58,378 nucleotides of DNA from Desulfobacterales bacterium. Its GTDB lineage: Bacteria; Desulfobacterota; Desulfobacteria; Desulfobacterales; SpSt-501. Below are positions 26,629-50,390 of this stretch, piece after piece. Location: contig JAUQXK010000047.1 of the NCBI GenBank assembly GCA_030834695.1, forward strand, positions 1 to 58,378, given 5' to 3'. Under the pieces are notes generated by a model. It was not told the origin of the DNA and did no database searches. It saw only the letters and a program-made list of their open reading frames with translations. Made by a program: the position numbers and the translations under genes. Position 1 is the first letter of the stretch, and each line of letters starts with the position of its first letter.

Positions 26629-26860
26629 GTTTTAAGTTTTAGGTTTTAAGTGTTAAGCGGCGGATGGATGCCGGTTTAACATGATAGGGTCTATCTTTCT
26701 TTGCTTAAAACTTTCAAGTAAGTTGGTTTCCTTGTTTTGTGGGAGCGGCATCTTGCCGTGATCTTGTCGCGGCTGGAAGCCACTCTCGCAAATAACAACC
26801 TTTCTTGCTGATAAAGTGGCGCCAAGCGCCAAGCGCCGCTTAACACGCAAAACTTAAAAC
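26629..26860. repeat. Composite intergenic element with TTTTAAG arms, copy 2
   Basis: The left arm GTTTTAAGTTTTAGG continues to GTGTTAAGCGGCG; the right arm CGCCGCTTAACAC continues to GCAAAACTTAAAAC, its inverse. The right end shares AACACGYAAAACTTAAAAC with copy 1 (15657-15867). A REP pair lies in the centre. The 232-base length is close to that of copy 1 (211). Confidence 0.7.
26737..26792. repeat. REP pair, copy 4
   Basis: TTTGTGGGAGCGGCATCTTG and, inverted, CGCGGCTGGAAGCCACTCTC, with a short spacer. It forms the centre of the second composite element and matches the core of the three other copies. Confidence 0.75.
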
Positions 26861-26867
26861 GGTTTTT

Positions 26868-27872
26868 TTATTTGACGCTTATTCTCGGATTGATCACCGC
26901 ATACAGCACATCCACTCCCAAGTTGATGATCACGAACAGCCCGGCGATAAAGAGGGTGCCGTTCTGGATCACCATGTAGTCGCGCTGCATCACCGCGTCG
27001 TACATCCACTTGCCCACTCCCGGCCAGGCGAAGATGGTTTCGGTCAGGATGGCGCCCCCCAGGAGCACGCCGAACTGCAACCCGATGGTGGTGACCACCG
27101 GGATCAGGGCATTTCTCAGTGCATGTTTGAAGACCACCTTGAACTGCGAAAGCCCCTTGGCCTTGGCGGTCTTGATGTAGTCCTGGCGCAGCACCTCCAG
27201 CATGGAGGAGCGCGTCATGCGCGCCACGATGGCCGTCGGGATGGTGGAGAGCGTAAAGGCCGGCATGATGAGGTGCCAGAAGGCGTCTCTCAACGCCGCA
27301 CCGTTCTTGGTGAGGACGGCGTCCACCAGGTAGAAGTTGGTGATTACGTCCAGGTGGACCCCGATGCTCAGCCGGCCGGAGATGGGCAGCCACCCCAACC
27401 AGACCGAAAAGATGAGCATGAACACCAGCCCCAGCCAGAAGATGGGCATGCTGACCCCCGCCAGGGCTCCCAGCATGCTGAGATAGTCGAAGATGGAATA
27501 CTGCTTGGTGGCGGATATGATGCCGAAGATCATGCCCAACGTGCAGCTGATCATCAAGGCTGCGACCGACAGCTCGATGGTGGCGGGGAAGCGCTGCCGG
27601 ATTTCGATCCAGACCTTCTGACGGGTCCAGATGGTCTCCCCCAGGTCCAGGGTGACCAGCCGTTTAAGAAACAGGCCGTACTGGACGTAAAGGGGTTTGT
27701 TCAAGCCCAGGTGCTCGCGCAGATTGGCCAGGGCTTCGTCCGAGGCGCGCTCGCCCAGAAGGAGTTCGGCCGGGTCGCCCGGGGTGAGGTGGAGCATAAA
27801 GAAAATGATGACCGACACTCCCAGGAGGGTCGGGATGAGGATCAATATTCGGCGGAGAATATAGGCAGCCAT
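26868..27872 (-). CDS. dppB: Dipeptide/oligopeptide ABC transporter permease (DppB type), system 1
   Basis: A 334-residue permease with six predicted helices. It starts MAAYILRRILILIPTLLGVS and has the family-typical HLTPGDPAELLLGERAS, ARMTRSSMLEVLRQDYIKTA, and the EAA-type loop AKGLSQFKVVFKHALRN. The C-terminus has the TETIFAWPGVGKWMYDAV element found in all DppB proteins. It is between dppA and dppC on the same strand. Confidence 0.96.
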   Translation of the reverse strand: MAAYILRRILILIPTLLGVSVIIFFMLHLTPGDPAELLLGERASDEALANLREHLGLNKPLYVQYGLFLKRLVTLDLGETIWTRQKVWIEIRQRFPATIELSVAALMISCTLGMIFGIISATKQYSIFDYLSMLGALAGVSMPIFWLGLVFMLIFSVWLGWLPISGRLSIGVHLDVITNFYLVDAVLTKNGAALRDAFWHLIMPAFTLSTIPTAIVARMTRSSMLEVLRQDYIKTAKAKGLSQFKVVFKHALRNALIPVVTTIGLQFGVLLGGAILTETIFAWPGVGKWMYDAVMQRDYMVIQNGTLFIAGLFVIINLGVDVLYAVINPRISVK

Positions 27873-27882
27873 GGATAAAAAT

Positions 27883-27958
27883 AGGGTTCAGGCGGGTCAA
27901 GGGTTCGGGGGCTGAGATATAAACCCCTGAACCCCGTACCCTTGGACCCTCGCCCCCC
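27883..27958. repeat. Intergenic inverted repeat between dppA and dppB, system 1
   Basis: The left arm AGGGTTCAGGCGGGTCAAGG continues into GGTTCGGGGG; the right arm (CCCCTGAACCCC, then CCCTTGGACCCTCGCCCCC) is its inverse. The unit GGGTTCAAGG is repeated within each arm, as in the repeat at 9779-9862. It could form a strong hairpin just after dppA, which would favour higher expression of the binding protein than of the permease. Confidence 0.6.
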
Positions 27959-27963
27959 TCGGT

Positions 27964-29643
27964 CTATTTTTCCAGCCACACGTTCTTCAGCCGGATCGAG
28001 GCGGTGGGGTGAAGCTTGAAGTCCTGCACGTTCTTCATCATCGGCCAGGTCTGGGTGCTGTGCGCGACGGGAATCACGGGCATCTCGTCGTACATGAGCT
28101 GCTGGGCTTTCTTGTAGATCTCCGCCCGCTGGGCCTGATCGGTGGTCTGCCGACCTTGCTCCATGAGGCTGTGATACTCATTATTGTGCCATTGGGTGCG
28201 GACGGCGGACGAGGCCATGCCGTCGTAAAGCACCGCAAGAAAGTTGTCCGGGTCGCCGTTGTCGCCTGTCCAGCCGAGCTGAAAGAGGTCCATGTCCGGC
28301 GGCTGTTCGCGCTGGCGCTTCAGGTAGGTACCCCACTCGTAGCTAACAATCCGGGCCTTGATTCCGACCTTTGAAAGGTCCGCCGCCATGGCTACTCCCA
28401 CTTTTAGTCCCTCAGGATTATACGGGCGGGCAACTGGCATGCACCAAAGGGTGATTTCATCAAGTCCCTTGCCCTCCGGGAACCCCGCCTCGGCCAACAG
28501 GGCCTTGGCCTTGTCGACGCTGTATTCGATCTGCGGCACGGCGTCGTTGTAGCCCCACATGATGGGCGGGATGTGGTTCTTGGCGAGCTGACCCTGGCCC
28601 TGGTAGATGTTGTCCACAATGGCCTTGCGGTTTATGGCTTGAGACAGGGCTTTGCGCAGCTTGGTATTGCTCTTCCAGGGCTCCTTGGTGTGGTTGAAGC
28701 TGAGATAGCCGATGTTCATGCCCGGCTGGGAGACGAGCTTCATGCTCGGGTCCTTCTGGGCGAGCGGGATGTCGGCAGCGTTCGGGAACTGGCAGATGTG
28801 GATGTTGCCGGTCTTGAGTTCGAGGAAACGTACCGAGTTTTCGGGGATGGCGCGGAACACCACCTTGTCCAAATACGGTCCCACTTTCTTGTCCCAGTAG
28901 TCAGCGTTCTTCTGAAGAACGATCCGATCATCCTTTACCCACTCCACGAACTTGAATGGGCCTGTGCCGACGGGGTTGCGCACGAACTCCTTGGGGTTCT
29001 TCAAAAACGCTTCGGGGCTAATGATGTCCGCAAAGTCCATACCCAGATTGGCCAGGAAAGGCGCGTCTACGCGTTTCAGTTTGAAGACCACCGTGTGTTC
29101 GTCCATAGCTTCAATAGAGCTGACCGTCTTGTCCATTTCCATGGACACCCAGTACTCGGGCGGGCGCTCCTGGGATGGGATCTCCCAGCCTTTGCCGAAG
29201 AATTTGATGTTGCGCTCCTTCATCTGGCGGCCCAGCGAGAAGACCACCGCGTCGGCGTTGAAAGGTGTGCCGTCGTGAAACTTGACGCCCTTGCGCAGGT
29301 TAAACGTATAGGTCAATCCGTCCGGTGAAATGCTCCAAGACTCCGCAAGTCCCGGTTCCAATGCGGTGGATTCGTCCTTGTATTCCACCAAAGCTTCCAA
29401 AACATTGTCGCAGATCATAAACGAGTTGCCATCGGTCTCGTAGGCCGGATCTAACCCGACGCTATCGCCACCACGCCCGAACACAAGGGTTCCACCGGCT
29501 TTGGTGACCGGGACGGCCGCTTTGGGGGCTTCGGCTTTTTTTTCTTCCTTCTTTTCCTCGCCACACCCCCACACGGCCACTAAAAGAAAAACGCTGGCAG
29601 CAATGATCAGAAAGAAATTATTGGCAGATAATGTTCTTTTCAT
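27964..29643 (-). CDS. dppA: Dipeptide/oligopeptide ABC transporter substrate-binding lipoprotein, system 1
   Basis: A 559-residue family 5 (SBP_bac_5) binding protein. The N-terminal signal has a lipobox ending VWGC near residue 27 and a Lys/Glu-rich linker (EEKKEEKKAEAPK), so it is a lipoprotein. The mature part shows GGTLVFGRGGDSVGLDPAYETDG, the LAESWSISPDGLTYTFNLRKGVKFHDGTPFNA core and FNHTKEPWKSNTKLRKALSQA, all family-typical. The start at 29643 has GGAGGG eight bases upstream. It is the first transporter gene, 70 bases after an M20 peptidase. It resembles the second binding protein (44942-46504), but that one lacks the lipobox. Confidence 0.95.
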   Translation of the reverse strand: MKRTLSANNFFLIIAASVFLLVAVWGCGEEKKEEKKAEAPKAAVPVTKAGGTLVFGRGGDSVGLDPAYETDGNSFMICDNVLEALVEYKDESTALEPGLAESWSISPDGLTYTFNLRKGVKFHDGTPFNADAVVFSLGRQMKERNIKFFGKGWEIPSQERPPEYWVSMEMDKTVSSIEAMDEHTVVFKLKRVDAPFLANLGMDFADIISPEAFLKNPKEFVRNPVGTGPFKFVEWVKDDRIVLQKNADYWDKKVGPYLDKVVFRAIPENSVRFLELKTGNIHICQFPNAADIPLAQKDPSMKLVSQPGMNIGYLSFNHTKEPWKSNTKLRKALSQAINRKAIVDNIYQGQGQLAKNHIPPIMWGYNDAVPQIEYSVDKAKALLAEAGFPEGKGLDEITLWCMPVARPYNPEGLKVGVAMAADLSKVGIKARIVSYEWGTYLKRQREQPPDMDLFQLGWTGDNGDPDNFLAVLYDGMASSAVRTQWHNNEYHSLMEQGRQTTDQAQRAEIYKKAQQLMYDEMPVIPVAHSTQTWPMMKNVQDFKLHPTASIRLKNVWLEK

Positions 29644-29713
29644 CTGACCCTCCTTTTTCGGTAGGTTTGGAAAGCAGGCAGTTGTTAAGGGAAGCGATAT
29701 TCATATCGAATCG

Positions 29714-36288: not shown

Positions 36289-37737
36289 TCAAAAAAACAC
36301 TAGGGTGACGACTGCGAAGCATGGGATCAAGAATACCAGGGCGTATTTCAGGACGTAGCCGAAAAAACTCGGCATCTTCGTCCCGGCCTCTTCGGCGATG
36401 GAGCGCACCATGAAGTTCGGGGCGTTGCCGATGTAGCTGCAGGCGCCGAAGAAGACCGATCCGGCCGAAACGGCGGCCAGATAGGCCGGCATCTCTCCCA
36501 TGAGGTGGACCACGCTCACGCTCTCGGGCACCCCCGGGTAGAAGCTGCCGAGCGCCGTGCTGAAAAAGGTCAGGTAGGTTGGCGCGTTGTCCAAAAAGCT
36601 GGATAACGCCCCGGCGGCCCAGAAATAGTGGGCGGGCTGATTGACGGCATTGATGAGAAACGCCATGGCCCCGTTGGGTCCGGCCTTCAGGATCAGCAGG
36701 CAGGGCAGCATGGTGATGAAGATGCCGATGAACAGAAGGGCCACCTCGACGATCGGCGCCCAGGTGAAATTGTTGTCCTCGCGGACCTCGGTGCGCGTGG
36801 TGACCAGCGAGATGGCGCCGATGCCGATCAGCAGCCCGTCGCGCACCCAGTCCTGCACCCCGCGGTGGATGCCCAGCGTGTTCAGCTCGCCCCAATCGAC
36901 CACCCCGCTCATGAGCACGGCGCCGACGATGCCCGCCAGGAGGATGAAGTTGTGGGATCCTTCCAGTTTGAGCGGTTCTTTAGGCCCCTTGGCCGGCCGA
37001 TCTTTGGCGCCCTCCTTGCGGTAGTAGTAGGAGTCCAGAATGAAATAGGTTGCCAGCAGCAGGCCGCTCACCAGCAGCATGTGGGGCAGGATCTTAAGCG
37101 TCCAGAAGAAGGACACCCCGTGAAGAAAGCCCAGAAACAGGGGCGGATCGCCGAGCGGGGTCAGGCTCCCGCCGACGTTGGCTACCAGGAAGATGAAGAA
37201 CACCACCATGAACGAACGGTTTTTGCGAAAGCTGTTGGCCCGCAGAAACGGCCGGATCATCAGCATGGCCGCGCCGGTCGTGCCCATCCAGGAGGCGATC
37301 GCCGTGCCGACCACGAGCATCGTCGTGTTGACGGCCGGCGTTCCCCGTATGGAGCCGCGCAGCATAATGCCGCCGGAGACCGTGTAAAGCGACCAGAGCA
37401 GAATGATGAAGGGGATGTAGTCCGCGACGATGATGTGCACGATCTCGTGCACGGCTACGAAACCGTATGCGAGGATGAAGGGGATGCCCATGGATGCGGC
37501 CCAGAATCCCGAGACCTTGCCGTAATGGTGGTGCCAGAAGTTCGGCAGCGCGAGCGGCATGAGTGCGATGGAGAGCAACATGCATGCAAAGGGGATGCAG
37601 CTCCAGATCGGAAGCGATTGCCCCAGGTCGAGAGGTGCGGGCGTTGCCGAGGCTCCCTGGGCCGCGGCCTCCATTGCAGAGGTGTACATCAAGGCGGCCA
37701 TGATGCCCAGGACGGCTATAACCAGGAGCCGTTTCAT
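36289..37737 (-). CDS. NhaD-type sodium:proton antiporter / ArsB-NhaD superfamily transporter
   Basis: A 482-residue polytopic membrane protein of the ion-transporter superfamily. A cleavable-looking N-terminal signal (RLLVIAVLGIMAALMYTSAM) precedes about 12 helices. The two conserved re-entrant regions are visible as MLRGSIRGTPAVNTTMLVVG with IASWMGTTGAAMLMIRP, and NVGGSLTPLGDPPLFLGF. These are the sites that bind the cation. The ATG at 37737 (MKRLLVIAV) follows GGGGAG; upstream extension is not supported. It is the first gene of the signalling block, so ion balance and two-component sensing may be linked. It could also transport a dicarboxylate; the family does not decide. Confidence 0.85.
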   Translation of the reverse strand: MKRLLVIAVLGIMAALMYTSAMEAAAQGASATPAPLDLGQSLPIWSCIPFACMLLSIALMPLALPNFWHHHYGKVSGFWAASMGIPFILAYGFVAVHEIVHIIVADYIPFIILLWSLYTVSGGIMLRGSIRGTPAVNTTMLVVGTAIASWMGTTGAAMLMIRPFLRANSFRKNRSFMVVFFIFLVANVGGSLTPLGDPPLFLGFLHGVSFFWTLKILPHMLLVSGLLLATYFILDSYYYRKEGAKDRPAKGPKEPLKLEGSHNFILLAGIVGAVLMSGVVDWGELNTLGIHRGVQDWVRDGLLIGIGAISLVTTRTEVREDNNFTWAPIVEVALLFIGIFITMLPCLLILKAGPNGAMAFLINAVNQPAHYFWAAGALSSFLDNAPTYLTFFSTALGSFYPGVPESVSVVHLMGEMPAYLAAVSAGSVFFGACSYIGNAPNFMVRSIAEEAGTKMPSFFGYVLKYALVFLIPCFAVVTLVFF

Positions 37738-37888
37738 CAGGTACTCCCCTTTCTGCGGCGCCATCGGCCGCAAGCATCGGTCGGCGCGGATCGGATCGAG
37801 GAAGAGCGGCTCGGGTTTGCCGGCGCCCGCGCAACTTTCACGGTGATGAAGGGTCCCGCGGCACGGGTTTTTTTGAATTAGCAAACTC

Positions 37889-37990: not shown

Positions 37991-38569
37991 ATGAACACCA
38001 GGCTGTTTCAGGCGATTGCCATGATGATGGGGCTATGGGCTGCTTCTGCCGGTTGGGCGGCGTCCGAAAACCAGCCGCCGGCCGAGGGATCGGCCTTGCC
38101 CGAAATCACGCTGCCGGCGCCCAAGGACGCCGCGCATCGGGCTTATCTGGGTCTTGCGGGCAAAAAGCAGTTTACGGTTGCAGACATCCCGGCCGAGATC
38201 GTGATCGTCCAGATCTTCAACATGTACTGACCGCATTGCCAGAAGGAGGCTCCTTCTGTAAACGAGGCCTACCGCAAGATCGAAGCGGATCCCCGGCTCA
38301 AAGACAAGGTCAGACTGATCGGAATCGGCGTCGGCAACTCGAGCTTCGAGGTCGATTATTACAAAAACAACTACAAGGTGCCTTTCCCGCTTTTCCCGGA
38401 CCCGGACTTCAAGATCCACAAGCTGGTGGGGGAAGTCCGGACCCCTTATTTTATCGGGGTGAAGAATCGGAAGGGGGCGGCTCCCCAGGTGTATTATTCC
38501 AAGCTCGGCGGAAGCCAAGACCCGGGGGAGTTGATCGAAAAATTGCTGGCCAAGTCCGGACTGCCGTGA
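37991..38569 (+). CDS. Exported thioredoxin-fold selenoprotein (in-frame TGA, UPHC motif)
   Basis: A 192-residue redoxin read through an in-frame TGA at 38228-38230 (residue 80). Residues 1-23 are a signal peptide (LWAASAGWA). The segment [14 protein letters not shown] puts selenocysteine where a thioredoxin-fold protein has the first Cys of a CPHC motif, after a hydrophobic strand ([10 protein letters not shown]). The frame continues without a break for 112 codons with thioredoxin-like features, including the cis-Pro-type strand [10 protein letters not shown] stable hairpin begins ten bases after the TGA, as needed for bacterial selenocysteine insertion. ATG 37991 has AGGAGG seven bases upstream. 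It is followed 23 bases later by a peroxiredoxin gene. A stop/frameshift pseudogene is far less likely. Automatic annotation will truncate it at codon 79. Confidence 0.87.
38240..38258 (+). promoter_or_regulatory. Bacterial SECIS-like hairpin after the selenocysteine codon
   Basis: CAGAAGGA-GGC-TCCTTCTG gives an 8-bp perfect stem with a 3-base loop starting with G; the loop begins 18 bases after the TGA. Bacterial SECIS elements recognised by SelB lie directly downstream of the UGA, with a small apical loop that has a G at its start at about this distance. The hairpin lies inside the coding sequence. Confidence 0.8.
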
Positions 38570-38592
38570 CGGCATCCGGCAAGAGGTTCGCT

Positions 38593-39189
38593 ATGAAAGC
38601 GATGGTGATGGCGTGCGGCCTGGCGGTTTGGCTTTGGGCTGCTGCGGCTCCGGCCGGAGCGCAGACGCTGAAGGACAGCATTTACGACCCCGGCGTTCTG
38701 AAGCCGATCGACAGCACACTCAAGGTCAAGAAGGGGCAGGCGGCCCCGGATTTCACCCTGCCCTCGATTATGGGCGAAAAGGTGCGGCTGAGCCAGTACC
38801 GGGGCAAGAAGAACGTGGTGCTCTCCTTCGTGCCGGCGGCGTTCACGCCGGTGTGCTCCGACCAGTGGCCGGGCTACAACATGGCCCGCGGCCTGTTCGA
38901 ACAGCACGACGCGATCCTGCTCGGCATCACCGTCGACAGCGTTCCCACGCTGTACGCCTGGACCCGGCAGATGGGAGCGGAGCTCTGGTTCCCGGTGTTG
39001 TCGGATTTCTGGCCGCACGGCGCGGTCGCTTCGAAATACGGCCTGCTGCGATCCGACGGGGTTTCCGAGCGGGCGCTGATCTTCATCGACAAGAAGGGGA
39101 TCATCCGGGACATCCTGGTCAGCGACATCAACAAGCGTCCCGACCTGGAGTCCTGCGCCGTCGCCCTGGACAAGTTGGATAAAAAGTAA
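38593..39189 (+). CDS. Exported peroxiredoxin (AhpC/TSA family)
   Basis: A 198-residue peroxiredoxin with a signal peptide (VWLWAAAAPAGAQ). The peroxidatic Cys is C88 in SFVPAAFTPVCSDQ, preceded by APDFTLPSIMGEKVRLSQY; the Thr and downstream segment FPVLSDFWPHGAVASKYG are as in the BCP/AhpC group. A possible resolving Cys lies near the end (LESCAVALD). It would reduce peroxides outside the cytoplasm, and the adjacent selenoprotein, 23 bases upstream, could be its reductant. Start 38593 follows AGAGG. The same frame is open back through the selenoprotein gene but that part is not translated in this frame. Confidence 0.92.
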   Translation: MKAMVMACGLAVWLWAAAAPAGAQTLKDSIYDPGVLKPIDSTLKVKKGQAAPDFTLPSIMGEKVRLSQYRGKKNVVLSFVPAAFTPVCSDQWPGYNMARGLFEQHDAILLGITVDSVPTLYAWTRQMGAELWFPVLSDFWPHGAVASKYGLLRSDGVSERALIFIDKKGIIRDILVSDINKRPDLESCAVALDKLDKK

Positions 39190-39852: not shown

Positions 39853-40827
39853 CTATTCCATGGGGTGGTAAACGTAACGATTCTTTGCCCTCGTCCGCTC
39901 GATCCGCCCCTTCTCCTTCAGATATTTCAAGTGGGAGATCGCTTCTCCCGTGGCAAACCATTTTTGCGCCAAAGGAAATGCCTCCCAACCGTCGCATTTG
40001 ATGTCCCACGTCATCCGGGATGCGATCTCATAGGCCGACAGACGGCTATTTCCGGCGATGCGCAAAATTTCGTTGCAGCGCTCAGAATGATGCGCTTTGA
40101 GCTCGGCAATTCGGCTCCGGTGATCGGTGATCAGCCGGCGATGCCCAGGGAGAGTGAGCTCGACATCGAGGTCATGGACGCGATCCAGGCTGCCCAAATA
40201 GCTCCTGAGGGGATTCTGAATTTCGGACCAGCACTGAATATTGGGGGTGATGTCGATTAGAATGTGGTCGCCGGCGACCAGGATCTTTTTTTCCGGTTCG
40301 TACAGACAGGTGTGACCGAGGCTGTGCCCCGGCGTGTGAACGCACCTGAAATGGTATTCGCCCACGTCGATGATGTCCCCATCCTGCAGAATATTCAGTT
40401 CGGGCACCCATTCCGAGCTGAATTTGAAGCCCGGGTGTTGCTCGATGGCTCGGTGGAGCTCATCTTCCGGGAAGCCGTTCTCGGCGGCATAGGCGAGCAT
40501 CGGGCCCCAACCGGGCCAGGCTTCGATGATCTCGGCATCCGGGCGGTTGAAATAGACCCGGCTCGAAGCGGCGATCAACCGCGACACCAGACCGAAGTGA
40601 TCCGCATGCAGGTGGGTGATGAAAAAATCGGTCTTGTTCGGATCGATTTTCAACTCTTCGAATCCGGCCTGCATCACCTCGAAGCACTCATCCCGGTTCA
40701 ACCCCGTGTCGATCACCAAATTCCGGCCGGCCGATCGAACCACATACGAGTTGAGAAACTTGAGCGGACTGCCGGGCAGCGGCACCTGGATCCGGAACAG
40801 ATCCCGGCGAAGCTCTTCAACCATCAT
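39853..40827 (-). CDS. MBL-fold metallohydrolase with C-terminal extension
   Basis: A 324-residue metallo-beta-lactamase-fold hydrolase. The metal site is clear: H72, H74, D76 and H77 in THLHADHFGL, a further His in HTPGHSLGHT, the bridging Asp in AGDHILID, and a His in LPGHRRLI. The C-terminal 80 residues (HHSERCNEILRIAGNSRLSAYEIA) form a helical/winged-helix part as in the LACTB2-like group, which cleave thioesters or RNA. The start is placed at 40827 (MMVEELRRD), preceded by GGAGAGGC; the longer frame runs into a dispersed repeat. It is convergent with nothing and preceded by that repeat. Confidence 0.9.
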   Translation of the reverse strand: MMVEELRRDLFRIQVPLPGSPLKFLNSYVVRSAGRNLVIDTGLNRDECFEVMQAGFEELKIDPNKTDFFITHLHADHFGLVSRLIAASSRVYFNRPDAEIIEAWPGWGPMLAYAAENGFPEDELHRAIEQHPGFKFSSEWVPELNILQDGDIIDVGEYHFRCVHTPGHSLGHTCLYEPEKKILVAGDHILIDITPNIQCWSEIQNPLRSYLGSLDRVHDLDVELTLPGHRRLITDHRSRIAELKAHHSERCNEILRIAGNSRLSAYEIASRMTWDIKCDGWEAFPLAQKWFATGEAISHLKYLKEKGRIERTRAKNRYVYHPME

Positions 40828-41276
40828 GCCTCTCCAATTCGCTTGCGCGCCTCGAAATAGTACTGTCATGCCGGACCCCGGATCAATGACTTCCGTGGCA
40901 GGCTTGTCCGGCATCCAGAACGGGTTGAATTCACTGGATTCCGGCTAAAAGCATGCCGGAATGACGACGTAAAGACAATTATGAGACCCTTAATATTTGT
41001 CAGGAGCACAGGACGAAATTTTGCTTGCCTGAATGCTCACCCCTGCCATCCATTGCCATCGCCCGCCAAGCAGATGGGCGACGGGCGGATGGTATATCAA
41101 TTCTCCAGGCGTTTGCAATCCAAAGGTCAGGCCCATCGAATCGATGATCGCGACCGATTCTGGCACCGAATCGGGTTTCCGGCTTCCTTGTCATCACATC
41201 CAAGCTCTGCTATTGGCGGTTGCATTGAAGGCCGTCCAAGGGCATCGGCTTGCTTCGGCAGGCGCGGCGAGGCGTT
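40828..41276. other. Divergent intergenic region, MBL hydrolase / M14 peptidase
   Basis: 449 bases with no convincing gene. The first part contains a dispersed repeat (40853-40990). The rest (40991-41276) carries only weak open frames and no repeat or strong promoter I can identify. It should hold the promoters of both neighbouring genes. Confidence 0.6.
40853..40990 (+). repeat. Dispersed 138-bp repeat, copy A
   Basis: CGAAATAGTACTGTCATGCC at the left, GGCATCCAGAACGGGTTGAA in the middle and GACGTAAAGACAATTATGAG at the right. The same segments occur in reverse orientation at 58143-58280. Internal inverted repeats (GTCATGCCGGA / CCGGAATGAC; ATTCACTGGATTCCGG) give a hairpin structure. There is no coding capacity. 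Confidence 0.8.
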
Positions 41277-44200
41277 ATGACTTCTGTTCGGAAGATAAAC
41301 CCACTGGCTCTCGATGTTCTCTTCGGATCTGCGGGCATCGCGGCGGATGAAAACAGGGATGGGTATCCGGATCGGTTGACGGTCTGCATCGGTGTCGCGC
41401 CCGGGCTTTCCGCTGCCGGCGTTTGGGCGCAGGTCCTGAACCTCGCGGCACGGCTGGCGGGCGAGGTGACCGCGCTGGACCTGCCGGTCGTCAAGGCCCT
41501 GAAGGACCTGGAGGCCGGCGAGACGGCGCTTGTCGTCCACCGGCCGTTGAAGAGCCATCCCCGGGCGGTCGAGCTGCGGCGGTCGGGCCGCGCGGTCCAT
41601 CTCGCGGGTCGCTCGGCGGAGCGCATGGCCGACGTGCTTGGCTCTTTGGCGATGCACGGCGGCGGGCAGCGGGGCCTGCAACGGCATTGGTCGTCCATGA
41701 GGGCAGCGGAAGATGAACCCCTGGCGATGGAGGCCTTGGACCGGCGGGGGCGGGCGGCCGGCCGTTACCGCCTATCGCCGGCACATCCGGCGGCGGAGAA
41801 GCCGGGTGTCGCGCGCTTCGATCTGCTGGATCTGGCGGGATCGCTTTACCGCGCTTCCGCCGAAAACCCCCGGGCCCGAGACCTTGCCCTCGCCGTCGAG
41901 CTTCCCCGGCAAGGGATTTCTTTTCAAGTCGGACTCGCCCTCGCGGAGGCGGTTGTGCGCGCCGCGCTGGAGGCCACGCGGGTGGAGCTGCCGCTGGCCG
42001 CTTCCCGGATGGGAACGGCGGGCGGAGTGATTCTGCGGGTCGGGCAGCGCCCCGGGCGCGGCGCACGCCTGTCCGTGGAGAAGGGCGGGAACGCAAACGG
42101 GGTGATCGTCCACGCCGATGGCGATGCGCGCAGCCTGGCGGGCCTGCTTCAGGATTGGGTGCGCATCGGCTTTGCCGCGGACGGGCCGGCGGAAGAAGGC
42201 GTCCGGCGCCTGCGCGGCCGCATCGATGACCTCCTGGCCATGATCGCTGCGGGAGCGCCGCCTTCGGCCCGGGCGGCGTCGACCTCCATCCGGCGGCGGT
42301 TGACCTGGCGCTCGGAGACCGAACGCCTGATCGAGGTCGTACGCTGCGTTCCGCCCGGCCGCGGCGCCATCCAGGGATTGGCCCTGATCAGCAAACCCGG
42401 GAACGTGAGGACGAAGGCGCGGCGCGAGATCGAGCGCATCCTGCGCGCCAAGGGATATGCGCCCGCGGTCGTTGTCCTGAACGCCTACAAGCCCGGGCTT
42501 TCTTGGATGCGGGAGGTCGTGCAGCCGGCACTTAAAGCCATCCCCCAGTTGGAGCGGGTGCGGGTCGCCTTCCGCGAGTTCGCACCGGATCGGCCGGCCC
42601 TCGAGATGAAATCCCGCTGGCTGCAGGAGCTCTATCCCGGTCCGGATCTGCTGGCCGCCGCCCTCGGACTTCCTGCCGAACGGGTGCGGCTTTCCCGGCG
42701 CAGCCGGCTGCGCGAAGCCTATGTCGTCACGGCCTGGGACCGCGCCGGCGCGCAAATTTATCAGGCGGGATTCACACCGCGGGTGAGTCGGCTGCCGTAT
42801 CTCCCCGGACATCCGGAGCAGGGATGGGTGCATCCGTGCACGGGAGGGATCCGGCTGACCCGTTCCGGCCATGTGATGATGGACGAGAATCTCCCGACCG
42901 ACCGCGAGCGCTTCTGGCGCTTCTTTCAGGAGCGCATCCTGTCGGCGATCGAGAGCGCCATGGCGGCACGGCTCGCCGACGGGGGAGAGCTGCCGCCGGC
43001 GTTCTGGGAAGAGGCGGCCATCGATGTGCGCATCCCGGAGACCGACGAGCGCCTGGGGCTCGGGGAGGAGCGTATCGCGCCGCTGGAGGCCCTGCACGAG
43101 GACCTTTATTTCGTGCTGCTGGACCATTTCCGGCTTTTCGCCGAGAAGCACCATCTGCCGGCCGGAAGCCAGTTCGGGCGGATCCTGCCGAGAGTCTCGA
43201 CGGCGGCACCGGGCGGTAAACCGGTCGCCGTCTTCCGGGCGCGGCCGTTTGCAGCATCACCGACGGCATGCTCCGCTGCTCCGGATTCAACTGCCAGGAT
43301 CGCATCCATCGCAACGGAGGCGGGGAGCCTGGTTTTCGAGGTCGAGGCCGGCGGCCCGGCCGCCGTTGAAGCGGGAGCCGAGGGATTGCGCCGTGCGGCG
43401 CGCTCGCGTGGGATCGACGTTAGCCTCGACGCCCGCAAGAACGGTTACATCTTACGAACGGCGCGGCCCCGACCGCCTGCCGCCGGCCGTCGGCCAAACC
43501 CAGCCGGCAAAGTCGTGGCGGCGCCGCCGCTCGACCGCCTTTTCCCCATGCGGGAGGTGGAGCACCGGGTCCGGCAGCTGGCGGAGCTGCCCCATCTCAG
43601 GGCCTGGCCGGCCGGAACCAGCTGGCAGGGACGCGGCATCTGGGCGCTGGAGGCGGTACTTACGGGCGGCGGCGGGCTCGTCTCCATCGCTCGCGCGCGA
43701 TTGCTCAAACCGACCCTGCTCGTGAACGCCCGGCACCATGCCAACGAGGTTTCCAGCACGAGCGCGGCCCTGCGGCTGGCCTGGGAGCTTGCCGCTACGC
43801 CCTGGGGGCGCGCGGCCCTCAAGCGGGTGAACGTCGCCATCATCCCGGTTGAGAACGCCGACGGGGTCGCCACCCTGGAGGAGCTGCAGCCCGGCTGCAC
43901 CGGCCACAAACTGCACGCCGCGCGCTACAACGCCCTGGGGGTCGAGTGGTACGGCGATTATTTCCTGGAGCAGCCGCGGTTTCCCGAGGCGCGTGTCAAA
44001 CCGCGCCTGTGGCGGCGCTGGCTGCCGCTGCTGGTCCTGGACGCCCACGGAGTCCCCAGCCACGAGTGGGACCAGCCCTTCTCGGGCTATGCCCCCGGCC
44101 GCTTCCGGCAGTTCTGGATTCCGCGCGCGTTCATTTACGCGATCATGCCGTTTATCGACCAGCCGTCCCACCCCGGCTACGGGCCGGCGCGGGACATTTC

Positions 44201-44588
44201 GAGGGTCTTGGCCCGAGCCGTCCATGCGGATCGCGGGATACGGGACCTGGACCGCGAGCTGAAAGATCGCTATGTGCGCTATGCGCGGCTATGGGACCCG
44301 GAGGTGTTTCCGCCGACCGGCGGCCCGGGGCTTACGGTGTTGCCGAGCGAGAAAAGGCTGGCCGGCCTGAATTTCGGCGTGCAGCGGTTTCCGGTCACGG
44401 TATCCGAGATCGTCACCGAGGTGACCGACGAGGTGGTCTCCGGCCGACTGCTGGAGCTGTGCGCACGCGCCCATCTGACGGCCGCCAGGGCGCTGCTCGA
44501 ATGGCTGGGGGGGCAGGCGCTCGGCCGCCTGGTGCGTAAGCGAACGCGCGGGGGTGGATTGGCGCTTTCTTGGGAAGCGGGCCATTAA
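41277..44588 (+). CDS. Large M14-type zinc carboxypeptidase-like protein
   Basis: A 1103-residue protein, about three times the usual M14 length. The peptidase core is in the last third: HxxE in ARHHANEVSST (H821, E824), the third zinc ligand H924 in LVLDAHGVPSHEW, and a Glu-rich end (SEIVTEVTDE, E1044 or E1048) that would supply the catalytic base. The first 800 residues are not recognisable, except for repeated Gly-rich/Arg-rich segments and a conserved-looking block GWVHPCTGGIRLTRSGHVM. There is no signal peptide, so it is probably cytoplasmic. Start 41277 (MTSVRKINP) has a weak GAGG. It precedes a second peptide ABC transporter by 353 bases on the same strand. Base composition agrees with its neighbours. 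Confidence 0.85.
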   Translation: MTSVRKINPLALDVLFGSAGIAADENRDGYPDRLTVCIGVAPGLSAAGVWAQVLNLAARLAGEVTALDLPVVKALKDLEAGETALVVHRPLKSHPRAVELRRSGRAVHLAGRSAERMADVLGSLAMHGGGQRGLQRHWSSMRAAEDEPLAMEALDRRGRAAGRYRLSPAHPAAEKPGVARFDLLDLAGSLYRASAENPRARDLALAVELPRQGISFQVGLALAEAVVRAALEATRVELPLAASRMGTAGGVILRVGQRPGRGARLSVEKGGNANGVIVHADGDARSLAGLLQDWVRIGFAADGPAEEGVRRLRGRIDDLLAMIAAGAPPSARAASTSIRRRLTWRSETERLIEVVRCVPPGRGAIQGLALISKPGNVRTKARREIERILRAKGYAPAVVVLNAYKPGLSWMREVVQPALKAIPQLERVRVAFREFAPDRPALEMKSRWLQELYPGPDLLAAALGLPAERVRLSRRSRLREAYVVTAWDRAGAQIYQAGFTPRVSRLPYLPGHPEQGWVHPCTGGIRLTRSGHVMMDENLPTDRERFWRFFQERILSAIESAMAARLADGGELPPAFWEEAAIDVRIPETDERLGLGEERIAPLEALHEDLYFVLLDHFRLFAEKHHLPAGSQFGRILPRVSTAAPGGKPVAVFRARPFAASPTACSAAPDSTARIASIATEAGSLVFEVEAGGPAAVEAGAEGLRRAARSRGIDVSLDARKNGYILRTARPRPPAAGRRPNPAGKVVAAPPLDRLFPMREVEHRVRQLAELPHLRAWPAGTSWQGRGIWALEAVLTGGGGLVSIARARLLKPTLLVNARHHANEVSSTSAALRLAWELAATPWGRAALKRVNVAIIPVENADGVATLEELQPGCTGHKLHAARYNALGVEWYGDYFLEQPRFPEARVKPRLWRRWLPLLVLDAHGVPSHEWDQPFSGYAPGRFRQFWIPRAFIYAIMPFIDQPSHPGYGPARDISRVLARAVHADRGIRDLDRELKDRYVRYARLWDPEVFPPTGGPGLTVLPSEKRLAGLNFGVQRFPVTVSEIVTEVTDEVVSGRLLELCARAHLTAARALLEWLGGQALGRLVRKRTRGGGLALSWEAGH

Positions 44589-44941
44589 AAGATTTCAGGA
44601 CTCAGGGCTGGGGACAAGGCCTGAGGACTGAGCGATAGGGAATGAGCGCATCGCGCTGAGACAACCGCCTATCGACCACCCCCAATATTGCCCATTGCGA
44701 GCGCTGCGGATTTGGGTTAAAAACCAAACAGCTCCACCGGCGGTCGTTGTTTGTGTGGATGCTCAACTTTGACGGGCCGGCAGAGAGCCCATCCGCATGT
44801 CATTGTGAGCGGAGCGAGAAATCCTTCGGTTGCCATGCGTAAAAAAATCAGATGTCTCCCTGCGGTCGAAATGACAGATCCACTCGTTACGGTCTTATGC
44901 AAGTTTATCCCGTTCAGGGAATCAAAAAAGGAGGAGGTTGT
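44589..44941. other. Intergenic region between M14 peptidase and second dppA
   Basis: 353 bases with no gene. It begins with a small inverted tract (AGGACTCAGG / CCTGAGGACT, 44597-44628) and holds a 79-base inverted repeat at 44798-44876. The last 65 bases carry the leader and a strong Shine-Dalgarno (GGAGGAGG) of the binding-protein gene. A separate promoter for the transporter is likely here. Confidence 0.65.
44798..44876. repeat. TGTCATT...AATGACA inverted repeat
   Basis: Ends TGTCATTGTGAGCGGAGCGA and, inverted, TGTCATTTCGACCGCAGGGA enclose a short centre with ATCCTTCGG and AAAAAATCAGATG. Both ends belong to a widespread kind of intergenic inverted repeat with TGTCATT termini seen in many bacteria. 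It lies about 65 bases before the second dppA. Confidence 0.65.
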
Positions 44942-46504
44942 ATGCGCAAACTCATCATCGGAATGGCTCTGGCCCTTTGTCTGCTGCCGGCCATCGGCTG
45001 GTGCGCCGAAAAGAGCGGCGGCACGCTGGTGTGGGGCCGCGGCGGCGACTCCGTGTCGCTCGACCTGGCTCAGGCCACGGACGGCGAGTCCATCAAGGCC
45101 GGCATCCAGGTGCTCGAGAACCTGGTCATCTTCGGCAAGGACTCGATGAACGTCGAACCCCAGCTGGCCGAGTCCTGGAAAGTGTCCGACGACGGGCTCA
45201 CCTGGACCTTCAAGCTGCGCAAGGGCGTCAAGTTCCACGACGGCTACCCCTTCAACGCCCGCGCGGTCTACGACTCCTTCGCGCGGGTGATCTTCAAGCA
45301 GCACCCCTACTACGGCTACGGCAAATGGCAGTACCCCGCCATGTCCCTGGGGCCGGTGAAGGACATCCAGGTGATCGACGACTACACGATCGCCCTGATC
45401 ACCGAAAAGCCATACGCGCCGCTGCTGAACAACCTCGCGCTCTGGCTCTGCCCGATCGTATCGCCCAAGGCCATGGCCGACTACAAGGACAAGATCGGCA
45501 TGCACCCGGTGGGCACCGGCCCGTTCAAGTTCAAGAGCTGGACCAAGGACGACCAGATCGTGCTCGAGCGCAACAACGACTACTGGGGCGAGAAGGCCAA
45601 GGTGGACCGCATCGTGCTCAAGTCCATCCCGGAGCCCTCGGCCCGCCTGATGGCGCTGCAATCCGGGACGGTGGACATCGCCGACGACCTCGATCCGGAT
45701 TCGATCGCCCTGGTCAAGAAGAATCCCAAGCTGGCCGTGATCGAACGGCCGAGCGTCAACGTGGGCTATCTCGCCTTCAACACCGAAAAACCTCGGCTGA
45801 AGGACCCCAAGGTGCGCCAGGCCCTGAGCCACGCCATCGACAAGGACACCCTGATCAAAACCATTTTTGCCGGTCTGGCCATCCCGGCCAAGAACCCGTT
45901 CCCGCCGTCGATTTGGTCATACAACGACGCCAACAAGCCCTACGAGTACAACCCCGAGAAGGCCAAGAAGATGCTGGCCGAGGCCAAGTTCGACTTCAAT
46001 ACCGAGATCGAGCTCTGGGCCATGCCGGTTTCGCGCGCCTACATGCCCGACCCTGTGAAGACGGCCGAACTCTTGCAGGCCTATTTTGCGGCGGTGGGCG
46101 TGAAAGCCAAGATTGTGCGCCACGAATGGGGTGCTTACTTGAGCAAGGTCGGCAATGGCGAGCACGACATGTGTATGTTCGGCTGGCTCGGTGGCAACTC
46201 CGACCCCGACAACTTCCTGTACGGTCTGCTCTCGGCCGACACGGCCAAGCCGCCTGGGGCCTCCAACGCGGCTTTCTGGAAGAATGCCGAATTCACAGAT
46301 CTCTGTCTGAAGGGCCAGAAGACCTTTAACAAGGCCGAACGTACCAAAATCTATCTCAAGGCCCAGGAAATCTTCCATGCCGAAGCGCCCTGGGCGCCGC
46401 TGGTACATACCATCAACGTGCGCTGCTACAGCAAGAAGTTGCATGACGTGCCCCTGCGGCCGAATGGGTTAAACTCGTTCCAGATGATCAGCAAGGAAAA
46501 GTGA
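44942..46504 (+). CDS. dppA: Dipeptide/oligopeptide ABC transporter substrate-binding protein, system 2
   Basis: A 520-residue family 5 binding protein. The signal peptide (LIIGMALALCLLPAIGWCA) lacks a clear lipobox, unlike the first system. The mature protein starts EKSGGTLVWGRGGDSVSLDLAQAT and has LAESWKVSDDGLTWTFKLRKGV, FHDGYPFNARAV and the HPVGTGPFKFKSWTKDDQIV stretch, as in DppA/OppA proteins. A Shine-Dalgarno GGAGGAGG lies just before ATG 44942. It is the first gene of the second transporter operon, downstream of the M14 peptidase. Confidence 0.95.
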   Translation: MRKLIIGMALALCLLPAIGWCAEKSGGTLVWGRGGDSVSLDLAQATDGESIKAGIQVLENLVIFGKDSMNVEPQLAESWKVSDDGLTWTFKLRKGVKFHDGYPFNARAVYDSFARVIFKQHPYYGYGKWQYPAMSLGPVKDIQVIDDYTIALITEKPYAPLLNNLALWLCPIVSPKAMADYKDKIGMHPVGTGPFKFKSWTKDDQIVLERNNDYWGEKAKVDRIVLKSIPEPSARLMALQSGTVDIADDLDPDSIALVKKNPKLAVIERPSVNVGYLAFNTEKPRLKDPKVRQALSHAIDKDTLIKTIFAGLAIPAKNPFPPSIWSYNDANKPYEYNPEKAKKMLAEAKFDFNTEIELWAMPVSRAYMPDPVKTAELLQAYFAAVGVKAKIVRHEWGAYLSKVGNGEHDMCMFGWLGGNSDPDNFLYGLLSADTAKPPGASNAAFWKNAEFTDLCLKGQKTFNKAERTKIYLKAQEIFHAEAPWAPLVHTINVRCYSKKLHDVPLRPNGLNSFQMISKEK

Positions 46505-46525: not shown

Positions 46526-46590
46526 TGGGTTCAACGGTTCAACGGTTGAATCGATGCTTTTGCAGCCGTGAACCGTTGAACCGTGAACCG
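46526..46590. repeat. Intergenic inverted repeat between dppA and dppB, system 2
   Basis: The left arm GGGTTCAACGGTTCAACGG and the right arm (CCGTGAACCGTTGAACCGTG) are inverted relative to each other and made of tandem GGTTCAAC units. It is in the same position (between dppA and dppB) as the repeat at 27883-27958 in the first operon, but with a different sequence. Confidence 0.65.
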
Positions 46591-46597
46591 AACGACG

Positions 46598-47608
46598 ATG
46601 CCCATCGGCTACCTATCCAAGCGCCTGTTCCATCTGGCCCTGATCCTGCTCGGCGTGTCCCTGCTGGTCTTTATGATGCTGCGCATGATCCCGGGCGATC
46701 CCGCACGGCTGCTGCTGGGCGAGTTCGCCACGGCGGAAGACTTGTCGCGGCTGCGTGCCCAGATGGGTCTGGACCGGCCCTATCCCGTCCAGTACGGAAT
46801 TTATCTTGCGAACATCCTCCAGGGCGATCTGGGCAATTCCCTGCGCAACGGCGCGCCGGTGGCGACGGAAATCGGCATGCGGCTGGTGGCGACGCTGGAA
46901 CTCGCGGTGGCGGCCATGCTGATCGCCTCGCTCGCCGGCATCGCGGCGGGCGTAATCTCCGCGGTGCGGCAGTATTCCGTCTTCGACTACGGCTCTATGT
47001 TCATGGCCCTGATCGGGGTCTCCATGCCGATTTTCTGGCTGGGCCTCATGCTCATGTACCTTTTAGCCGTCATGTTCCCGATCATGCCCATGATGGGCCG
47101 GATCGGCATGGGCAACGAACCGGAGGTAATGACGGGGCTGATGCTGGTAGACACCCTGCTGGCCGGCGAGTTCGGTGACTTCCTCGATGCACTGCACCAC
47201 CTGGTCCTGCCCGCTTTCACGCTTGCGACCATTCCCATGGCGATTGTCGCTCGCATCACCCGCTCCTCCATGCTCGAGGTGCTCAACAAGGATTACGTGC
47301 GCACGGCGCGCGCCAAGGGCATGGGGGAAGTTGTGGTCATCCTGCGCCATGCCCTGCGGAACGCCTTCCTGCCCGTCGTGACCGTTCTGGGGCTCAACCT
47401 CGGGCTGCTGCTGGGCGGCGCGGTGCTGACCGAAACCATCTTCTCTTGGCCCGGCCTGGGCCGCTACGTGGTGGACTCCCTCATGGCACGGGATTACGCG
47501 GCCGTGCAGGGCTGCATCCTCGTGTTCGCCGGCCTGATGGCCTTCATCAACCTGATCGTCGACCTGGTGTACGCGCTGCTCGACCCGAGGATCCGCGTCC
47601 ATGCGTAG
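46598..47608 (+). CDS. dppB: Dipeptide/oligopeptide ABC transporter permease (DppB type), system 2
   Basis: A 336-residue permease with six helices. It starts PIGYLSKRLFHLALILLGVS and has MLRMIPGDPARLLLGEFA, IARITRSSMLEVLNKDYVRT, the EAA-type loop ARAKGMGEVVVILRHALRN and TETIFSWPGLGRYVVDSL. The ATG at 46598 has no strong Shine-Dalgarno and follows a hairpin; a GTG 15 bases upstream is possible. Its stop overlaps the dppC start by eight bases. Confidence 0.95.
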   Translation: MPIGYLSKRLFHLALILLGVSLLVFMMLRMIPGDPARLLLGEFATAEDLSRLRAQMGLDRPYPVQYGIYLANILQGDLGNSLRNGAPVATEIGMRLVATLELAVAAMLIASLAGIAAGVISAVRQYSVFDYGSMFMALIGVSMPIFWLGLMLMYLLAVMFPIMPMMGRIGMGNEPEVMTGLMLVDTLLAGEFGDFLDALHHLVLPAFTLATIPMAIVARITRSSMLEVLNKDYVRTARAKGMGEVVVILRHALRNAFLPVVTVLGLNLGLLLGGAVLTETIFSWPGLGRYVVDSLMARDYAAVQGCILVFAGLMAFINLIVDLVYALLDPRIRVHA

Positions 47609-48440
47609 GTGGGAGACATTTCAGGACCTGCTGCGCAGCCGCAGCGCCACGTTCGGCATGGCGCTGATCGCCCTGGTGCTGCTGGTCGCCGTCATCGGGC
47701 CGGCCCTGGCCCCCCACGATCCGCTCAAGCCCGTCCCCCTAGATCGTCTGAAGGGACCGAGCGAAAAAAACCTCTTTGGCACCGACAGCCTCGGCCGGGA
47801 CATTTTCAGCCGGGTGATCTACGGTGCACGCATCTCGATCCTGATCGGGCTGATCTCGGTCTCGATCTCGCTTCTGCCGGGGACCCTCCTGGGCTTGGTG
47901 GCCGGCTATTTCGGCGGCCGGGTCGACAGCCTGATCATGCGGCTGATGGACATGCTGCTCGCCTTTCCGGCGATCCTGCTGGCAATTTTTATTACCGCCA
48001 TTTTAGGCCCGAACCTGCCCAACACCATGGTGGCGGTCGGTATCGTCTACATCCCGCACTATGCGCGTATCGTGCGCGCGAGCGTGTTATCCCTCAGGGA
48101 GCAGCTCTTCGTGCAGGCCATCGCCCATCTGGGCGGCGGGCACAGCCGCATCCTCGGGCGGCACATCCTGCCGAACGCACTGCCGCCGATCATCGTTTAT
48201 GCCACGCTCGGCATGGGCACGGCCGTTCTGCAGGCGGCCGCCCTGGGGTTTCTGGGCCTGGGCGCCCAGCCGCCCCAGCCGGAATGGGGCGCCATGCTGA
48301 GCGAGGGCCGCCAGTACATTCAGATCGCCCCTCACGTGGCGGCCTTTCCGGGGGCCGCCATCCTGGTGCTCGTGCTGGGGTTCAATCTCTTCGGCGACGG
48401 TCTGCGGGATGTGCTGGACCCCTCGCTGAGGTCGGTCTGA
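47601..48440 (+). CDS. dppC: Dipeptide/oligopeptide ABC transporter permease (DppC type), system 2
   Basis: A 279-residue permease. After an N-terminal helix ([21 protein letters not shown]) it has [19 protein letters not shown] and the [19 protein letters not shown] motif diagnostic for DppC. The EAA-type loop [17 protein letters not shown] is present, followed by [20 protein letters not shown]. It starts inside the end of dppB and ends 11 bases before dppD. Confidence 0.95.
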
Positions 48441-48451
48441 GGGGACGCGGC

Positions 48452-49420
48452 GTGGACGAACCGGTTCTCGAAATCGTCGGGCTCAAGACCCAGTTCCGGA
48501 CGCGGCGCGGCGTGGTGAAAGCCGTGGACGGGCTGGACCTGACGGTGCACCCCGGCGAGACGTTCGGCCTGGTGGGCGAGAGCGGCTGCGGCAAGAGTGT
48601 CACGGCGTTGTCGATCCTGCGCCTGCTGCCGAGGCCGGCCGGCCGCATCGCCGAGGGCCGCATCCGATTCCAGGGCAGCGATCTGGCGACGGTGAGCGAA
48701 GCGGAGATCCGACGCATCCGCGGCAACCGCATCTCCATGATCTTCCAGGAACCGATGACCTCGCTCAACCCGGTCTACACCATCGGCTTCCAGATCGAGG
48801 AAGTCCTCCGCAAGCACCGCGGCATGAACCGTGCCGAAGCCCGGGTCGAGGCGGCCCGCACGCTTGGTCTGGTGGGCATGCCCGAGCCCGCCGCGCGCCT
48901 TGACGACTACCCACACCAGTTTTCAGGCGGCATGCGCCAGCGGGCGATGATCGCCATGGCGCTCGCCTGCCGGCCGGCCCTCATGATTGCCGACGAGCCG
49001 ACCACGGCGTTGGATGTCACCATCCAGGCCCAGATCCTGGACCTGATCGCCCGCCTGAAGCAGGAGTTCGGCATGTCGGTGCTCCTCATCACTCACGATT
49101 TGGGAGTGGTGGCCGAGATCTGCCGCAACGTGGCGGTGATGTACGCCGGCAAGGTCGTCGAGAGCGCCGGCGTGGATGCGCTCTTCAGCCAGCCCGCTCA
49201 CCCTTACACCGTCGGGCTTTTCAACTCTCTGCCGCGGGTCGGCGGCCGGGCCGGTGGGCTCAAGCCCATTCCGGGAGTGGTGCCGAGCCTGGCGAACCTG
49301 CCTTCGGGCTGCGCCTTTCAGGACCGCTGTTTCCGGCGGCACGAAGCCTGTGGCGAAGAGCCCCCGTGGCGGCCGATCGCTCCGGGCCACCATGCCCGCT
49401 GCTGGAAGCCGATGGAGTAA
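48452..49420 (+). CDS. dppD: Dipeptide/oligopeptide ABC transporter ATP-binding protein (DppD type), system 2
   Basis: A 322-residue ABC ATPase. I take the GTG at 48452 ([15 protein letters not shown]), which follows GAGGGG, as the start because the preceding part of the open frame lies inside dppC. Motifs are [61 protein letters not shown] and [12 protein letters not shown]; the C-terminal tail has the Cys motif [18 protein letters not shown]. It is four bases from dppF. Confidence 0.94.
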
Positions 49421-49424
49421 AGCC

Positions 49425-50390
49425 ATGGCGCATCCGATTTTGGCCGCTGAACATGTCGCCAAGCACTACCCCCTGAAGGGGGCGGGTTTCTCGCGCCGTC
49501 AGGGCCGGGTGCTGGCGGTGGCGGATGTGTCTCTCAGCGTGGCGGCGGGCGAGGTTTTCGGCCTGGTGGGGGAAAGCGGCTGCGGCAAGTCCACTTTGGG
49601 CCGGGCGCTGCTGCGGCTTGAGGATCCTACGGCCGGTCGGGTGTTCTTTGACGGAGAGAACATCGCGGCCTTTGATCCGCCGCGCTTGAAGCAGTTCCGG
49701 CGCGAGGCCCAGATCGTTTATCAGGACCCTTACTCGTCCCTGAATCCGCGGCGGAAGGTCGGAGACCTCATCGCCGAGCCGCTCGACATCCACCGGGTGG
49801 GGGCGCCGGCGGAGCGGCGCGAGCGGGTGGCGTGGCTGTTGAAGGTGGTCGGTCTTTTGCCCGAGCACGGCCGCCGTTACCCGCACGAATTCTCGGGCGG
49901 ACAACGCCAACGCATCGTTATCGCGCGGGCGTTGGCGTTAAATCCGCGGCTGCTCCTGGCCGATGAGCCGGTCTCGGCCCTGGACGTGTCGATCCAAGCC
50001 CAGGTCGTCAACCTGCTCAAAGAATTGCAGACTCAATTCAAACTCACCTATATTTTCATCTCCCATGACCTGAGCCTGGTGGAATACATCTGCGACCGGG
50101 TGGCCGTGATGTACCTCGGCCGGCTGGTCGAACTGGCGTCCAAGCAGGCCCTTTACGGCGAGCCGATCCATCCCTACACCCAGGCCCTGCTGTCCGCCGC
50201 GCCGGTGCCGGACCCCAAGGCCCGCAAGAACCGTATCCTGCTGGCGGGCGATGTGCCCAGCCCGATCCACCCGCCGTCGGGCTGCAGCTTCCATCCCCGC
50301 TGCCGTGAACGCTGTGACATATGCTCCGAACAACTCCCCGAATTCCGCGAAATCTCCCCCAGCCGCTTCGTCGCCTGCCACCGTCGCTGA
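49425..50390 (+). CDS. dppF: Dipeptide/oligopeptide ABC transporter ATP-binding protein (DppF type), system 2
   Basis: A 321-residue ABC ATPase with [59 protein letters not shown] and [11 protein letters not shown]. The tail [15 protein letters not shown] is typical of peptide transporter subunits. ATG 49425 is four bases after the dppD stop; the open frame before it overlaps dppD. It is the last gene of the operon and faces a convergent gene at 50489. Confidence 0.95.

Follow-up and report, generated by a model that had tools for sequence, protein, structure and literature searches.

M14N, a long M14-type metallopeptidase without the carboxylate clamp, and its possible role in the cleavage of imported N-blocked peptides

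The gene considered here lies in a stretch of 58,378 nucleotides (the window) from a Desulfobacterales bacterium (assembly GCA_030834695.1, contig JAUQXK010000047.1). Positions 41277-44588 (+) form one stop-free open reading frame (ORF) of 1103 residues, termed M14N, which is a variant of the M14 peptidases with a new architecture and probably a new role. The explanation that fits best, offered tentatively and with chances somewhat short of even, is that M14N is a cytoplasmic zinc peptidase that splits imported short N-blocked di- or oligopeptides, most likely pyroglutamyl (5-oxoprolyl) ones. It is favoured by the combination of three observations, namely the loss of the carboxylate clamp of M14 enzymes, the loss of the amine contact in the solute-binding protein (SBP) encoded next to M14N, and the adjacency of pyroglutamate genes to M14N in separate lineages of Bacillota.

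The M14N family and its active site

The original prediction described a 1103-residue M14-type peptidase, and the ORF, its length and the placement of the M14 part are all confirmed. A false merge of two frames can be dismissed, as nine of the ten relatives found by a related-locus search are single ORFs of 1070-1409 residues from stop to stop, the tenth (L009) being a fragment ended by its contig edge. The ten loci are from Desulfobacterota-type and Bacillota-type genomes, in which the protein is conserved along its whole length. In whole-genome searches the family was found in 8 of 146 related genomes (one match being a fragment), in 10 of 395 from the phylum to which the source of the window belongs (with one further, ordinary M14 match in genome G380) and in 8 of 398 from that of the Bacillota genome G524, where 16 more genomes gave only weak matches to other M14 proteins. 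No genome in these searches held a second full-length copy.

The whole protein has no match in NCBIfam or among PDB sequences, and the sole Pfam model above its cut-off is Peptidase_M14 (PF00246), at residues 776-868 (41.9 bits, cut-off 21.6); one other match was sub-threshold, and the Pfam scan found no Peptidase_C15 domain. An AlphaFold2 model was built from an 11-row alignment (pLDDT, the predicted local distance difference test, 80.7; pTM, the predicted template modelling score, 0.82). Its M14 part, about residues 745-1103, matches carboxypeptidases with VIA Z scores of 23-25 over 250-292 residues, and as modelled the C-terminal third of M14N is of the M14 carboxypeptidase fold. From Pfam, model and alignment together the domain is placed at residues 750-1100 (43524..44576, +), and it contains H821, E824, R883, H924 and E1048.

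These five residues and N885 are invariant in all 26 sequences of an alignment of the window protein with 25 relatives, all single ORFs, of which those of L052 and L008 reach contig ends; L095 (the same place as L011), repeat copies of loci and the sequences from G006 and G010/L009 were left out. The HxxE motif (H821, E824) and H924 align with the zinc ligands of ordinary M14 proteins, so that the ligands originally proposed are indeed kept in homologues. A core-motif glutamate had been placed at residue 1044 or 1048, and here only Glu1048 stands; Glu1044 is variable across the same 26 sequences and was rejected as a catalytic residue. R883 aligns with twelve ordinary M14 proteins at the position that we take to be Arg127 in carboxypeptidase A numbering (followed also for Asn144, Arg145 and Glu270 below). 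E1048 belongs to a strand late in the model, outside the part aligned with the ordinary M14 sequences, and is the probable equivalent of Glu270 on the strength of the model and its invariance.

The clamp is a different matter. In ordinary M14 enzymes it is formed by Asn144-Arg145, the arginine of which binds the C-terminal carboxylate of the substrate. Within the M14N family neither the Arg nor the Asn occurs in any of the 26 sequences, whereas the twelve ordinary M14 controls have Arg145 in every case and Asn144 in ten (His in L061 and L063); the GVDLNR of ordinary M14 proteins reads GVEWYG or similar in M14N. The controls were chosen where an HxxE...NPDG pattern could be excised, other weak matches being unused, and come from G000 (L001 and L002), from G380 (L036) and, in nine cases, from weak matches in genomes of the G524 phylum. 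Since the ligands and R883 are invariant and the clamp residues are gone, the zinc chemistry is probably intact, to judge by sequence, and the usual carboxylate anchor is missing. M14N therefore has in common with the M14 family (carboxypeptidases A/B/N/T; PF00246) the fold, the HxxE and His ligands and probably the equivalents of Arg127 and Glu270, but it differs in having no clamp, in carrying about 750 extra N-terminal residues and in matching PF00246 over residues 776-868 only. No signal peptide is visible in M14N on inspection by eye, as had been claimed before, and we infer that this metallo-amidohydrolase is cytoplasmic.

The linked transporter and the genes of pyroglutamate metabolism

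A peptide ABC transporter operon had been predicted to follow M14N, and dpp-like genes do lie downstream on the same strand. They encode a DppA-like SBP (SBP_bac_5; 44942..46504, +, its start set on visual inspection to the ATG that follows GGAGGAGG), DppB-like (46583..47608, +) and DppC-like (47601..48440, +) permeases, and DppD-like (48419..49420, +) and DppF-like (49416..50390, +) ATPases, the starts of both ATPases being approximate. The synteny extends beyond the window, with the SBP gene next downstream of M14N in 17 of 17 Desulfobacterota loci (window, L004-L008, L013, L016, L020, L081-L087, L094), that of L008 reading as two overlapping ORFs. Of the 14 loci with enough downstream DNA, 13 continue with dppBCDF; L016, L020 and L084, which run no further than the SBP or barely beyond it, are outside this count, and L087 (8678-14000) reads M14N-SBP-dppB-dppC, dppD and dppF being absent from the following 5 kb. 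A gap of 353 bases (44589-44941) separates M14N from the SBP start in the window, and the two frames almost touch in L004, L013, L081 and L094. The linked SBPs are 66-88% identical to that of the window, which is higher than the identity of M14N itself.

The system shares gene order and sequence family with DppABCDF but departs from it at one site of the binding protein. In an alignment to E. coli DppA, 15 of 15 linked SBPs long enough to include both positions retain Arg383 and have Gly in place of Asp436 (L016 and L020 stop short of the Asp site, and L159 and L160 repeat L086 and L085). We take Asp436 to be Asp408 of the mature protein, allowing for a 28-residue signal peptide, and Arg383, mature Arg355, to be the partner of the peptide carboxylate in DppA. 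The two nearest unlinked paralogues (L161 and L162; 42-43% identical), out of 21 taken from three genomes, keep both Arg and Asp; the other 19 (25-38%) are too distant for safe comparison, and the Asp column is mixed among them, three having Asp and three Gly. In a study of these proteins, Asp408 of DppA is among the residues that contact the charged termini of the dipeptide (PMC3295651). A carboxylate contact kept and an amine contact lost, as the alignment suggests, would suit a peptide without a free amino terminus. The linked SBP scores 362.6 bits against the NCBIfam DppA model, for which the cut-off is 1005, and the top solved relatives of the window SBP are chains named heme-binding protein A. 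The window also holds a second dpp operon (23638-29700, -), the SBP of which (27967-29643) keeps both Arg and Asp and therefore looks like that of an ordinary dipeptide importer.

Genes for pyroglutamate metabolism adjoin M14N in three of six Bacillota lineages. In L091-L093 the order is dppD-dppF-SBP-dppB-dppC-M14N-pxpA-pxpB-pxpC on one strand, the stop of M14N overlapping the start of pxpA as ATGA in all three; their M14N proteins are 78-92% mutually identical and were counted as one lineage, and L093 has an IclR regulator upstream. In L095, a CN-hydrolase, DUF969, DUF979, the pyroglutamyl peptidase Pcp, PxpA, PxpB, PxpC, M14N and an SBP are encoded in one direction, and in L090 DUF969 and DUF979 adjoin M14N. 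In Campylobacter jejuni, loss of cj0552-4 (DUF969, DUF979, DUF2891) abolished 5-oxoproline use (PMC12795558), and DUF969/979 have been suggested as 5-oxoproline carriers (PMC12795558; PMC11467057). For the lineage count L010 and L012 (70% identical) were treated as one, and the flank of L052 was too short to judge. On the short contig L012 the gene after M14N encodes an M24 peptidase (4375-5877) instead of an SBP.

Genome-wide, PxpA is present in 26 of 27 genomes with M14N (17 of 17 Desulfobacterota, 9 of 10 Bacillota). In samples of the two phyla the figures are 46 of 198 and 64 of 199, with four and five M14N genomes among those sampled. Fisher values for this co-occurrence are small but were computed as if the genomes were independent, which they are not. 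Of nine Desulfobacterota pxpA loci that were fetched, seven have pxpB and pxpC beside pxpA (L141 is truncated at a contig edge, and in L151 pxpA stands alone), and none contains M14N. Two of them, L149 (G004; 1-3488) and L151 (G152; 3-5280), carry other dpp genes about 5 kb from the pxp genes and away from M14N; these dpp genes are 38-56% identical to those of the window, and an SBP is 28% identical.

Pcp (pyroglutamyl peptidase I, Peptidase_C15) belongs to a family unrelated to M14N. What the two would share is the proposed reaction and, in L095, the company of PxpABC and DUF969/DUF979. Of the 27 M14N genomes, 22 lack Pcp, a point in favour of the proposal, but five, all of Bacillota, have it, so that M14N is not simply a Pcp substitute and the idea of a plain replacement is weakened. 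As both enzymes are encoded in G524, M14N would have to take substrates that Pcp does not, or cut a different bond; pGlu-Pro as an example of such a substrate is a guess.

Other genes lie around the M14N-dpp cluster of the window. A TAXI-type solute-binding protein (NMT1_3, PF16868; 50916-52052, -) adjoins the dpp genes on the opposite strand, and upstream of M14N are a metallo-beta-lactamase-fold protein (39853-40914, -), an AhpC/TSA-type protein (38035-39189, +) and a CitMHS-type transporter (36289-37884, -); none of these three upstream neighbours is tied to M14N by anything that we observed.

The N-terminal region

The N-terminal region had been described as having no obvious family, which is right as far as sequence goes and only partly so for fold. 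Residues 1-748 of ten members, searched one by one, gave no credible Pfam family (best E 0.036), and searching the PDB with a profile of this region gave nothing at E values up to 10. When residues 1-748 were modelled separately (pLDDT 78.5, pTM 0.54), the best fold match was BcsB (Foldseek E 4.1e-6; VIA Z 14.1 over 258 residues at 5.1 A, spanning 14-690), followed at Z 7-9 by N-terminal domains of GH115 (Z 8.8), GH138 and GH67 enzymes. The models and matches delimit an alpha/beta domain 1 (residues 10-166; 41304..41774, +) and a domain 2 (184-326; 41826..42254, +) that repeats it (hhalign probability 96.0, E 4.4e-9). Taken singly, the two domains reach only Z 6.5-8, a level flagged by the tool (GH67 Z 7-8), and are best described as resembling the BcsB/GH20b-type alpha/beta fold. 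M14N has the fold of its N-terminal part in common with BcsB and with the N-terminal domains of GH67-, GH115- and GH20-type glycosidases, but no such membership is seen by sequence, either in Pfam for the ten members or in the PDB profile search. Near the start of domain 1 is a DxDxDGxxD motif (residues 24-32) that resembles a calcium loop; it is kept in the ten rows covering these residues in the first alignment, lost in L089-L093 and incomplete in L088. An EF-hand/TSP3-like loop of this kind (41340-41375, residues 22-33) is found here in a seemingly cytoplasmic protein.

Domain 3 (residues 336-660; 42282..43256, +), as delimited from models and alignment, is alpha/beta and conserved, resembles no known fold clearly and shows no relation to domain 1, and the small domain 4 (674-730; 43296..43466, +) is modelled as two strands, a helix and two strands and is poorly conserved. 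Averaged over the alignment columns of the 26 sequences, identity is 0.38, 0.37, 0.48 and 0.28 for domains 1 to 4 and 0.55 for the M14 domain, and W410, R447, W547, E608 and Y611 of domain 3 are invariant in all 26. Domain 3 gave six matches in each of two sets of 299 and 297 genomes, all within full-length ORFs and none as a stand-alone protein, so that the N-terminal region and the M14 domain keep company. Several candidates for a function in this region were discarded. A DapB/DXR/serine-dehydratase-like kinship of residues 405-502 was set aside, as the matches reach only Z 6-7, which the tool warns is common. A Foldseek match to a Toblerone-fold cyclic amide hydrolase (5hy2, E 1.1e-4) is not credible, with a probability of 0.54 and a template modelling (TM) score of 0.08; such hydrolases are not among the 50 VIA matches listed, which excludes nothing. 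The cysteine-bearing segment GWVHPCTGG that had been pointed out is present, but its cysteine occurs in only four of the 26 sequences, the window included, and Cys521 was rejected as a catalytic residue.

A proposed route and its alternatives

The scheme that we favour would run as follows. In Desulfobacterota, N-blocked peptides would be captured by the SBP that has the carboxylate-side Arg and no Asp for a free amino terminus, and would be imported through the adjoining Dpp-like transporter. Within the cell, zinc held by H821, E824 and H924, together with R883 and E1048 as general base, would hydrolyse the amide bond that follows the cap by the chemistry usual for carboxypeptidase A, and the 5-oxoproline released would then be converted to glutamate by PxpABC. 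Because the classical clamp is missing, the substrate would be chosen by other residues, perhaps including those of domain 3. A peptide- or amide-processing role had been suggested from the start, and the M14 fold (VIA Z 23-25) and the conserved synteny support it.

A number of observations weigh against a pyroglutamyl substrate in particular. Most serious is that the SBP change is seen in Desulfobacterota and the pyroglutamate link in Bacillota, the two never occurring in one lineage. Pyroglutamate genes are near M14N in none of the 17 Desulfobacterota loci within 4-21 kb (58 kb in the window), pxpA lying elsewhere, nor are they found near M14N in the three remaining Bacillota lineages (L088, L089 and L010/L012); the Bacillota SBPs belong to other groups (28-30% identical), in which the Asp and Arg sites are not comparable; and in L095 about 400 bases separate pxpC from M14N. 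Loss of the clamp alone does not predict a pyroglutamyl substrate. One M14N genome (G777) has no PxpA, and sampled genomes of families f80 and f139 have PxpA and no M14N match. With relatedness ignored in the statistics, the co-occurrence, which is partly shared ancestry, is therefore supporting evidence only. Finally, in G524 a true Pcp gene is part of the run that holds M14N, and four more M14N genomes have Pcp.

The same facts bear on the alternatives. M14N might be a general cytoplasmic peptidase that trims whatever the Dpp-like transporter imports, the pyroglutamate neighbours in Bacillota being incidental, and the SBP gene that adjoins M14N in 17 of 17 Desulfobacterota loci, with no pyroglutamate link there, would be expected of such an enzyme. 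We nevertheless regard this as unlikely, given the clamp lost in 26 of 26 sequences, the amine-side Asp lost in 15 of 15 linked SBPs and the convergence of three separate Bacillota lineages on pyroglutamate genes. A different N-blocked or unusual amide as the substrate of M14N (N-formyl, N-acyl or gamma-glutamyl peptides, or glutathione-like ones), with 5-oxoproline secondary, is also improbable. The change in the SBP is compatible with any peptide lacking a free alpha-amine, and the solved relatives named heme-binding protein A belong to a group that includes glutathione binders (see also PMC3295651). However, GbpA binds the amino terminus of glutathione through an Asp, seemingly at the position lost here (PMC3295651), and the DUF969/DUF979 and Pcp neighbours point to 5-oxoproline itself.

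The remaining two alternatives appear far less probable still. M14N could recycle cell-wall peptides in the manner of MpaA, the murein-tripeptide-specific zinc carboxypeptidase that acts behind uptake by MppA. By analogy the pathway logic would be the same, with an M14 enzyme behind a peptide importer and paired with a peptide-binding protein, but M14N has another architecture and other neighbours, and no murein-recycling family was seen among the selection of neighbour ORFs scanned; we give this very little chance. Just as doubtful is a bifunctional M14N with domain 3 as a second enzyme, for example a lactam- or gamma-glutamyl-processing one. Its better conservation (0.48, against 0.38 and 0.37 for domains 1 and 2) and the invariant polar residues R447, E608 and Y611 speak for such an activity, but the fold matches of residues 405-502 reach only Z of about 7, called common by the tool, Y404, K405, E451 and R599 are changed in L091-L093, and the domain is never found alone in the 299 and 297 genomes.

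If cleavage of pyroglutamyl peptides is the correct reading, a further claim can be considered, which we rate as possible but less likely than not: that M14N founds a new and evolutionarily separate class of pyroglutamyl-peptide hydrolases, in which a clamp-less carboxypeptidase fold, a dedicated importer of N-blocked peptides and PxpABC would make up a complete route of uptake, cleavage and recycling. Such a route would have escaped notice since the only model that the enzyme matches is that of a peptidase, over a fraction of its length. Among the matches listed in a literature search, mostly outside subscription papers, none links M14 to 5-oxoproline or pyroglutamyl peptides.

Pyroglutamate caps form on N-terminal Gln or Glu and shield peptides from ordinary aminopeptidases, and the bacterial pyroglutamyl peptidase activity is known mainly from the cysteine peptidase Pcp. 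If the proposal is true, a metallopeptidase solution would be added to an activity so far mainly that of Pcp, and a testable substrate is proposed for the branch of M14 without the carboxylate clamp. A route for the import and opening of capped peptides would then explain how some anaerobes make use of that fraction of degraded protein.

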